64,000 bases of DNA from Bolinopsis microptera. Its lineage: Eukaryota > Ctenophora > Tentaculata > Lobata > Bolinopsidae. Position 1 is the first letter of the stretch. Each line of letters begins with the position of its first letter. Under the pieces are notes generated by a model that was given only the letters and a program-made list of their open reading frames with translations, had not been told where the DNA came from and searched no databases. The stretch spans positions 3,601,246 through 3,665,245 of the forward strand of contig NC_087081.1 of assembly GCF_026151205.1 (NCBI RefSeq), written 5' to 3'. The translations under genes and the position numbers were made by a program. This document shows positions 12,119 through 18,145 of the stretch, in pieces.

Positions 12119-12126
12119 ATTTGTAC

Positions 12127-12349
12127 GGCAAGTTTCCATAAATAAAATTTTACTATGAGCGCTCATTGTCGCCTACTGAGCGCTTATTTAGCGATTATAA
12201 TCGGTTTAGGCTGTTTATAATCGCTTTTATAGCGATTATAATTGATTGAAATAAAAGCGCTCATAACCGATTATAATTGCTGTAAATATTTTTAAAAGCG
12301 ATTACCTTATTTTTTTAGCGCTTGTAATCGCTTTTTGGTCGTTTCTAAT
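12127..12349. repeat. Left terminal inverted repeat of the large foldback element
   Basis: Rich in AGCGATTATAATCG and GAGCGCTCA-type palindromes. It pairs with 17601-17823 over its full 223-bp length. Confidence 0.88.
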
Positions 12350-13045
12350 TCGACATATGAAGTCATCTAGTGTCATCTAGCGTCATCTAGCGTGAAATAT
12401 CGCCAGATGATGAGAGATGACGCTAGATGACGCCAATTAGCGACATTGTCGCTAATTGCGCGGCACCTTTCGAATGTCGCTATCTGACGCTTTCTGGCGC
12501 TATCTAGCGCTATACATGACACTCTATGACGCTGTATGACGCTGTATGACGCTAGACGACGCTAGATGACGCTAGGCACGCAGCACTGACGCCAGGCGCT
12601 ATTTTCATGAAAATTCTAGGGACGACATCTAGCGTCATCTAGCGTCATATGTTGCCGCGACATCTGACGCTATCTGACGCCATCTAGCGACATCTGACGA
12701 CATCTGACGACATCTGACGCGACGACATCTGACGCAGGCGACATCAAGCGCTGGATAGCGGGATAAGTCAGTTTACGACAGTTCACGCTAACTAGCGCTA
12801 GATAGCGTTAGATAGCGCTAAATAGCATTAGATAGCGCTAAATAGCATTAGATAGCGCTAAATAGCGAAGAATTTCGGGTCGTGACAGTCCAGGCTATTT
12901 AGCGCTAGATGTCGCTATCTAGCGCTATATCAATATGTCGCTGCACGTCAGGTGTCGTTGCGTCATATAGCGCTAGATAGCGTTAGATAGCGCTGCATCA
13001 GATGTCGTCGCTACATATATAGCAGAAGATATCATATCCTATCAC
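12350..13045. repeat. Left arm array of GCGCTA/GACGCTA words
   Basis: Dozens of near-palindromic words such as TAGCGCTA, GATAGCGCTA, CATCTAGCGTCATC and CATCTGACGACATC alternate. Inverted counterparts lie at 15700-16390 and 16690-17130. Confidence 0.85.
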
Positions 13046-13332
13046 AGTAACAGTAACCCTAACCCTGTGTGTGTGTGCGTGTGTGTGTGTGTGTATGTGT
13101 GTGTGTGTGTGTGTGTGTGTGTGTGTGTGTGTGTGTGTGTGTGTGTGTGTGTGTGTGTGTGTGTGTGTGTGTGTGTGTGTGTGTGTGTGTGTGTGTGTGT
13201 GTGTGTGTGTGTGTGTGTGTGTGTGTGTGTGTGTGTGTGTGTGTGTGTGTGTGTGTGTGTGTGTGTGTGTGTGTGTGTGTGTGTGTGTGTGTGTGTGTGT
13301 GTGTGTGTGTGTGTGTGTGTGTGTGTGTGTGT
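13046..13332. repeat. Telomere-like block joined to (GT)n
   Basis: CAGTAACCCTAACCCTGTG passes directly into about 265 bp of GT repeat with one early GCGT and one GTAT interruption. The mirror image, (CA)n then CAGGGTTAGGGTTAC, stands at 16508-16646 in the other arm. Confidence 0.95.
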
Positions 13333-13368
13333 TACTCATACTGGGACCGTAAGCGCAGCCTGTTTTTG

Positions 13369-15645: not shown

Positions 15646-16507
15646 TAACTTTGATAGCTTTAGAGTGAGGGTTTGGATTCACATATGACATGATAGCCAT
15701 GTGTCTACGCGTACTGCGTGGACTGTCGCAAAACGACATCCTTCATTAATTATGCGCCGCGATATCTAGCGCAAGCTGTCACCACGATATCAAGCGCTAG
15801 ATAGCGCTATCTACTTCTACTTCTAGCACTATCTAGCGTAAACTGTCACAAACCGACATTCTCCGCTAGATAGCGCTATCTAGCGGAGAATGTCGGTTTG
15901 TGACAGTTTACGCTAGATAGCGCTATCTAGCGCTAGCTGTCGCCGCGATATCTAGCGCTAGAAAGCGCTATCTAGCGTAAACTGTCACAAACCGAAATTC
16001 TCCGCTAGATAGCGCTAAATAGCGCTGCGTCAGATGTCGTTGCGACATATAGCGTTAGATAGCGCTAGACACCGATAGATGTCGCAAAAAATGCGGACAT
16101 TTTATGAAAATAGCGCTATCTGTCGCCTGGCGCCAGTGCTGCGTGCCTTGCGTCATCTAGCGTCATATAGCGACATATAGCGTCATACAGCGTCATACAG
16201 CGTCATATAGCGTCATGTACCGCTAGATAGCGCCAGAAAGTGTCAGATAGCGATATTCGAAAGGTGCCGAGCAATTAGCGACAATGTCGCTAATTGGCGT
16301 CATCTAGCGTCATCTATCATCATCTAGCGATATTTCACGCTAGATGACGCTAGGTGACGCTAGATGACGTCATATGTCGAATTTCAACTATCAGTAAAGG
16401 TCCAAATCATGTTGATGGGGTCAGCGTAAAAAACGGTGAATAAAAAAAGCTACTATAATCGCTTATAATAGCGCTTTTTAATTCTGTTCCAACCGGTATT
16501 AATAAAA

Positions 16508-16646
16508 GCACACACACACACACACACACAAGCAAACACACACACACACACACACACACACACACACACACACACACACACACACACACACACACACACA
16601 CACACACACACACACACACACACACACACACAGGGTTAGGGTTACT
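16508..16646. repeat. (CA)n joined to TTAGGG-type block
   Basis: About 125 bp of CA repeat (one AAGCAAACA interruption) ends in CAGGGTTAGGGTTAC. It mirrors 13046-13332. Confidence 0.95.
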
Positions 16647-17600
16647 TTTACTGTTACTGTTACTGTGATAGGATATGATATCTTGTGCTATATGTAGCGA
16701 CGACATCTGACGCTATCTAGCGCTATATGTCGCAACGACATCTGACGCTACATAGCGCTATCTGGCGCTATATAGCGCTAGAAAGCGTGAACTGTCGTAA
16801 ACTGACTTATCCCGCTATCCATCGCTTAATGTCGCCTGCGTCAGATATCGCCTGCGTCAGATGTCGTCGCGTCAGATGTTGTCAGATGTCATCAAATGTC
16901 GCTAGATGGCGTCAGATAGCGTCAGATGTCGCGGCAATATATGACGCTATATAGATAGTAGATCAAGATGACGCTAGATTTCGTCCCTAGAATTTTTATG
17001 AAAATAGCGCTATCAGTATCTGTCGCCTGGCGGCAGTGCTGCGTGCCTATCGTCATCTATCGTCATCTAGCGTCATCTATCATCATCTGGCGATATTTCA
17101 CGCTAGATGACACAAGATGACTTCATATGTCGAATTTCAACTATCAGTAAAGGTCCGAATCATGTTGATGGGTAAAGAACGGTGAATAAAAAAGCGATTA
17201 TAATCGCTAATAAGCGCTTTTCAATTCCGTTCCATCCGGTATTAAAAAGAAGCGCTTATAAGCGATTTTTTGTGCAACCACGTTTAGAACCATGTTGATA
17301 GGAAAAACGGTAAAAAGCGGTGGAAAAGATTGAAAAAGCGGTAAAAAGCGGTAAAATAAAAAGCGACAATAAGCGACAAGGAGCGACAATTGGCAATAAA
17401 AATCGCTTATAAGTGGTTTTCAAAAAAGCGCTCTGTAGTCGCTCAGTAGGCGCTTTCAAAAAGGCTAAATTGCAGTCAACGTATAATCGCTTATTTATCG
17501 CTTATAAACGGCGCTTATAAGCGCTTTTCTGAGCGGCCGCTTTTCCAGCGCTTATAATCGCTTTATTCTTGGAAAAATCGCTTTCGAAGCGATTTAATCG

Positions 17601-17823
17601 ATTAGAAACGACCAAAAAGCGATTACAAGCGCTAAAAAAATAAGGTAATCGCTTTTAAAAATATTTACAGCAATTATAATCGGTTATGAGCGCTTTTATT
17701 TGAATCAATTATAATCGCTATAAAAGCGATTATAAACAGCCTAAACCGATTATAATCGCTAAATAAGCGCTCAGTAGGCGACAATGAGCGCTCATAGTAA
17801 AATTTTATTTATGGAAACTTGTC
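17601..17823. repeat. Right terminal inverted repeat of the large foldback element
   Basis: Reverse complement of 12127-12349. Inside it, 17225-17600 is an extra AGCGCTTATAAGCG-rich segment without an obvious left-arm partner. Confidence 0.88.
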
Positions 17824-18145
17824 ATTTGTACGGAGTTAAATCAAAATAGAACAGGCAGGGTTTTTGTTAATGTGAAAAAAATGTAATTTAATAAGTTCTA
17901 TTAGGTTGTATTGACCGAATTTTTTTTTTTTTAGGAAAATATTTTCAAAATTTACATACAATATAACATGTGGCGCAAAATAAAATCAAAATATAACTGA
18001 TTGCGATCTCTAAAGGACAGATGTATGTAAATTTCAAAGGGAAACCAGAACGCAGTAAAATTGTAGTCGAAACCACACCGCACAAGCCTAGTCCCTGGTA
18101 AATGAAAATCAATCAAATAATATGTTGATAAAAAATCATATCCCA

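Follow-up and report, generated by a model that had tools for sequence, protein, structure and literature searches.

Merlin transposons (IS1595-type DDE superfamily) form families that all start with GG and have a target site duplication of 8 or 9 bp. Their published terminal inverted repeats (TIRs) are 24-462 bp long, and Merlin matches are known in three ctenophores (available part of PMC8101967). In the TIRs of Galileo, more than one transposase binding site has been demonstrated (available part of PMC3688188).

The window analyzed here, meaning the whole stretch of 64,000 bp, is taken from the genome of Bolinopsis microptera (C10:3601246-3665245; 264.65 Mb in 232 contigs). It contains an element of 5,697 bp (12127-17823), which is very probably a non-autonomous cut-and-paste DNA transposon with a foldback build. 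This confidence concerns the kind of element and not its relation to Merlin. All the features of a foldback TIR transposon are present: long repetitive inverted arms, a target duplication, dispersed copies and no recognized transposase. The parts of the window copy are as follows, in window positions:

12119..12126, + strand: left 8-bp target site duplication ATTTGTAC, adjoining the left end
12127..12349, + strand: left TIR, the first 223 bp of an A-type TIR with the remainder deleted (99% to positions 1-223 of the L026 TIR)
12347..12349, + strand: left-arm deletion junction, ~475 bp lost, 3-bp overlap (jump in the TIR alignment)
12347..12928, + strand: inner inverted block, left (partner 15801-16383, 73%)
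13066..13332, + strand: (TG)n array, left arm
13993..14250, + strand: innermost inverted block, left (partner 14397-14684, 73%)
14397..14684, - strand: innermost inverted block, right (partner 13993-14250, 73%)
15079..15385, no strand assigned: core module, non-coding, containing short runs of CCCTAA
15097..18865, + strand: segment also found at C10:3667654 to ~3671744 (98.3%, two-piece match)
15801..16383, - strand: inner inverted block, right (partner 12347-12928, 73%)
16509..16632, - strand: (CA)n array, right arm
17047..17823, - strand: right TIR of A type at full length, with GA in place of the terminal GG (alignment to L023)
17824..17831, + strand: right 8-bp target site duplication ATTTGTAC, adjoining the right end

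The 8-bp sequence lies exactly at both ends, as the earlier note had described. The outer arms, which the same note gave as near-identical over 223 bp, do pair at 99.5% over 221 nt (12129-12349 with 17601-17821), but they do not make up a full TIR. After TIR position 223, the alignment of the left arm to the L026 TIR skips to ~698, while the right arm is full-length, with 96% identity to the right arm of L023 (17047-17821) and 96.5% to its left arm (17054-17821). Judged from these alignments, the TIR originally measured at least 787 bp, and the 223-bp arm is what a deletion has left of it. At the right end of the window copy, base 2 is altered, reading GACAAG instead of the GGCAAG of other ends.

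The additional inverted pairs inside the outer arms, of which the same note had counted at least three, amount to five, of 73-83% identity. Next to the inner and innermost blocks listed above, they pair 12546-12857 with 16711-17076 (78%), 12913-13189 with 16509-16787 (83%) and 13366-13431 with 15567-15632 (83%). The element can thus fold on itself in part, but the view that most of it does so is slightly strong, the best strictly nested chain having 1,201 columns per arm (~42% of the 5,697 bp). The description of the arms as rich in AGCGCT words is correct, with 39 counted in the element and four in the rest of the window. Besides the element's own, inverted repeats longer than 500 bp also occur in two of the eleven 5.7-kb window tiles (from 17101 and 45601), so that the length of the palindrome alone is unremarkable in this window. 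More telling than palindrome length are the exactness of the duplication and the existence of further copies.

Other repeats are found in the window. A second long inverted pair (45831-48039; 592 bp, 97.6%) has the ends GGTCGCATACGACCC and carries repeated GGTCGCA/CGACCC words; an exact 8-bp duplication was looked for near its ends and not found. At 19374-22183, inverted tandem repeats of 171-172 bp flank a 1.4-kb AGG-rich array with a strong GC skew. Two 283-bp inverted copies (95%) lie 9 kb apart at 18857-19139 and 28157-28438, and a minisatellite at 48349-49609 is built of 34 copies of a 37-bp unit (94%).

Homology extending past position 17823, which the earlier note regarded as evidence against a transposon, was met with once. 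The match at C10:3667654 to ~3671744 runs 1,042 bp beyond the right end of the element. The preceding part, 13671-14966, is only 83% identical to that stretch of C10, and no left family end was seen in 10 kb around the match; hence it looks like a segmental duplication passing the right end, going by the alignment, and the copy at C10:3670476 was rejected as a second insertion. Elsewhere, copies end at the same bases.

A genome search with the left arm, proposed as a way to find further copies, gave at least 41 matches with 40 of 203 candidates scored; among the matches listed, 14 are 90-100% and 27 are 71-75% identical. The matches of the genome searches are located on C1-C13 and on small contigs. 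The end sequence GGCAAGTTTCCATAAA is present 117 times in forward and 116 times in reverse orientation genome-wide, and its reversed control gave none. Among the 100 such places listed (on C1-C7), 80 form 40 inward-facing pairs and 20 are unpaired. Four end types, A to D, can be distinguished, the first 15 bases being common to all. The D-type end GGCAAGTTTCCATAAC accounts for 40 of the 43 places found with a second pattern (control 1); 36 of these 40 ends face one another in 18 pairs separated by 4.9-17 kb, and four are unpaired. The A/C-type pattern yielded 55 ends (control 0), including those of short elements of 127-591 bp. Inward pairs span from 111 bp to 17.0 kb. The end listings are whole for the exact A/C and D patterns, and most B-type GGCAAGTTTCC ends on C8-C13 fall outside them.

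Twenty-four copies were fetched, including the window copy, and 16 of them are complete. In the other eight, a single intact end was found within the fetched stretch, and they were set aside from the duplication count (L024, L025, L026, L027, L028, L029, L032 and L033). One of these, L025, has AAAGTACG on both flanks despite its damaged right end. Long runs of N are contained in L022 and L028.

A perfect 8-bp target duplication flanks 14 of the 16 complete copies, and all 14 sequences are different. Copies lacking such a duplication had also been named as evidence against a transposon; two complete copies, L030 and L034, do lack one. At L034 (C11:11575891-11581238), only 5 bp separate two family ends. 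The first of the copies shows no duplication and has the inverted flanks AGTT and AACT, which suggests a rearrangement.

Empty sites were searched for by joining the flanks of the 14 copies with a single duplication. Paralogous empty sites exist for three of them, with 33 (L045), 9 (L031) and 1 (L035) rows that are 98-99% identical across the junction. The check that the earlier note had called for thus succeeded where repeats cross the joined flanks; the remaining 11 copies, including the one in the window, gave no empty-site row among 40 of 1,010 candidates scored. With ends at the same bases, 14 duplications of 8 bp, empty sites for three copies and no recognized transposase in the copies read, the first proposal of a giant non-autonomous foldback transposon is upheld.

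The TIRs of the family reach 1,118 bp (98.8%) in the A-type copy L023, 813 to 1,962 bp (88-98%) in B-type copies, and 582 bp (99.8%) and ~680 bp (96.6%) in D-type copies; that of the C-type copy L043 measures 52 bp (88%). Seven A, B and D TIRs contain 26-48 AGCGNT words each (44-52 per kb when both strands are counted). Single-base shuffles of these TIRs yield at most seven, and the remainder of the window has 0.5 per kb. Against an expectation of 0.08-0.13, the word AAAAGCG was counted 13 times in an A TIR, 18 times in a B TIR and 13 times in a D TIR, one TIR of each type being examined. Palindromes of 10 bp are found at 6-14 per kb in TIRs vs 2.2. The arms hold (TG)n arrays and the core short CCCTAA runs.

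The interiors are mosaics of common non-coding modules. Several A- and B-type copies have the complete core module of 15079-15385; C- and D-type copies have fragments of it. A 110-bp piece of core from a C-type copy is 97% identical to the B-type copies L036, L042, L039 and L035 and 90% to the window copy. Despite this common core piece, A and B TIRs are only ~66-73% alike.

No transposase had been recognized in the element, and none was recognized in the other copies read either; the frames beyond ten Pfam-scanned ORFs were judged by eye, and an intron-split gene could escape. In the Pfam scan of these ten ORFs, no transposase scored above the cut-off, the one match above it being a reverse transcriptase in L023. 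Other matches, including PF02917 (E 0.026), fell below the curated cut-offs and were taken as chance. A full-length copy with an enzyme ORF, which the earlier note had suggested looking for, did not emerge; no autonomous copy was found among the listed pairs. The candidates rejected for want of a recognizable transposase were L021/L022 (A copy, 13 kb), L046 (D copy, 17 kb, middle read), L044 and L045 (D copies), L043 (C copy) and L057 (C copy, 4.6 kb, 600 bp read). By eye, a reverse-transcriptase frame is present in L043 and a fragment of one in L046.

Transposase genes in the genome were compared by eye with the listed pairs, outside of which lie most B-type ends on C8-C13. The Merlin domain (DDE_Tnp_IS1595) gave 58 matches (63 of 63 candidates scored) and a Merlin protein query at least 122 (119 of 154 scored), none of them within a listed pair. 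A 222-bp copy on C1 is flanked by two Merlin remnants, 1.6 and 1.8 kb away, an arrangement that may be due to chance.

The likeliest source of the enzyme is nevertheless the Merlin superfamily, to which we give about an even chance. Of the 32 ends of the 16 complete copies, 31 start with GG, the exception being the right end in the window (GA); among the incomplete copies, one end of L027 reads GA and one of L028 TG. The 8-bp duplications also agree with Merlin. The TIRs of complete A, B and D copies (582 to ~1,960 bp) exceed the published range, and only the C-type L043 and the deleted window copy (221 bp) lie within it. Because of these longer TIRs and the missing enzyme, the family is not assigned to Merlin.

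The genome holds long open reading frames of Merlin type in which the D, D and E blocks are conserved; ten Merlin loci were read. In two of them, L049 and L055, the ends are of GGCA type and fit GGCAGTYTMCAAGAAG, with GGCAT at one of these four ends. L049 is bounded by GGCAGTCTACAAGAAG and GGCATTCTCCAAGAAG with the 8-bp duplication GGAATCAG, and L055 by GGCAGTTTACAAGAAG and GGCAGTCTCCAAGAAG with the 8-bp duplication GAATATCC; both carry palindromic TGGTCCATGGACCA words. A GGCA-type end was not seen in the other eight loci, for some of which the stretch may have been too short. In L053, a Merlin frame lies between 298-bp TIRs (93%) made of AAGAACCGGTT words (1170-1467 and 3885-4171), that is, a word-array TIR on an element holding its enzyme gene. 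In L051, repeated words continue to where the stretch stops; the remaining six loci are without clear ends. Judged by eye, L055 also holds a second frame of 378 aa, and the right part of L052 has a stretch rich in Pro and Ala codons.

The family end agrees with the L049/L055 consensus at 11 of 12 positions with one gap, a score that 276 of 200,000 random GG-start sequences also reach, although this consensus is derived from the compared ends themselves and favors a match. Against the four Merlin ends taken singly, the corresponding values are 9-10 of 12 and 0.004-0.04. This resemblance between short end sequences favors Merlin, short of proof.

We tentatively propose, with a confidence somewhat below even, a first giant foldback lineage run by Merlin (IS1595-type) enzymes. 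AAGCG arrays of hundreds to thousands of bases would replace the short Merlin TIR, the end types would swap shared non-coding core pieces, and one transposase would mobilize elements of 0.1-17 kb in a ctenophore. Among the matches listed in a search of the Merlin literature, the word foldback occurs 0 times.

It is unlikely, though worth considering, that the family owes its movement to a hAT, P or KDZ transposase or to an unrecognized DDE one. Each of them can produce duplications of 8 bp. The hAT superfamily is abundant here (at least 150 matches, 150 of 365 candidates scored), and 3.7 kb inward from the unpaired end C11:11581238, for which no partner end was found, there is a degenerate hAT fragment (C11:11584943). 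Still, none of those 150 hAT matches is within a listed pair (by eye), and the ends of hAT and P elements usually begin with CA, whereas the ends of this family start with GG. Searches for P (PF21788) and KDZ/Zisupton (PF18758) gave 0 matches, though the control genomes gave none either.

It is rather improbable that a Mutator-like (MULE) transposase moves this same kind of element. MULE target duplications are usually ~9 bp (8-11), and all 14 found here are exactly 8 bp. MULE transposases are present in the genome, with 88 matches (131 of 131 candidates scored), but judged by eye none of them falls between the ends of a listed pair, most B-type ends on C8-C13 being outside the list. In its favor, foldbacks are often MULE-derived, and Tetris, with duplications of 8-10 bp, is so assigned (available part of PMC4079207).

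Finally, a chance palindrome or satellite-like inverted duplication is hardly credible: simple and tandem repeats abound in the window, two other tiles hold long inverted repeats and the right part of the element lies within a segmental duplication, but the exact common termini, 8-bp duplications and empty sites of the other copies led us to reject it.

Under the preferred reading of a transposon served by an enzyme acting in trans, a transposase encoded elsewhere in the genome would bind the arms at their numerous AAGCG words, pair two GGCAAG ends and excise the element, which would then be inserted at a staggered 8-bp cut. By analogy with Galileo (available part of PMC3688188), the word arrays may act as multiple binding sites. 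Core pieces would be exchanged by recombination between copies.

This is a real and well-bounded non-autonomous foldback family of a kind already known. The family itself is perhaps undescribed, as judged against the literature among the matches listed. Its literal end motif had only unrelated occurrences there, going by titles and the start of abstracts, and the word ctenophore was not found among the matches listed in a search for it; near matching to plasmid records gave no match.

Tetris, from Drosophila virilis, is likewise a non-autonomous foldback element for which no autonomous copy was found. It also has ends in common with a MITE, repeats within its TIR and a target site duplication of 8-10 bp. 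It differs in its assignment to Mutator and in its TIR repeats of ~220 bp, vs the short AAGCG-type words here (PMC4079207, in the part available). The foldback family Tm1 of root-knot nematodes is of Mutator type, according to the title of PMC3169594. Galileo, a member of the P superfamily in Drosophila, is similarly foldback-like, and its TIRs are very long and full of internal repeats. It differs in having a known transposase, which is of P type (THAP; PMC3688188, in the part available). The present family has ends starting with GG, and the single P search here gave 0, with no positive control. The GG ends and the 8-bp duplication are shared with Merlin, from which the family differs in the lack of a seen transposase and in TIRs that exceed the published 24-462 bp (PMC8101967, in the part available). 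The similarity to L049 and L055 extends to the first 12 bases and to the palindromic words near their ends.

The family adds a large foldback group in a ctenophore, with some copies' arms 99-99.8% alike. Long near-identical inverted arms across chromosomes can favor inversions, as for Galileo (available part of PMC2775673). If the Merlin link is true, long word-array TIRs would occur in a superfamily whose published ones are short, and the family would be a second case, beside Galileo, for asking whether such arrays serve as platforms with multiple binding sites.
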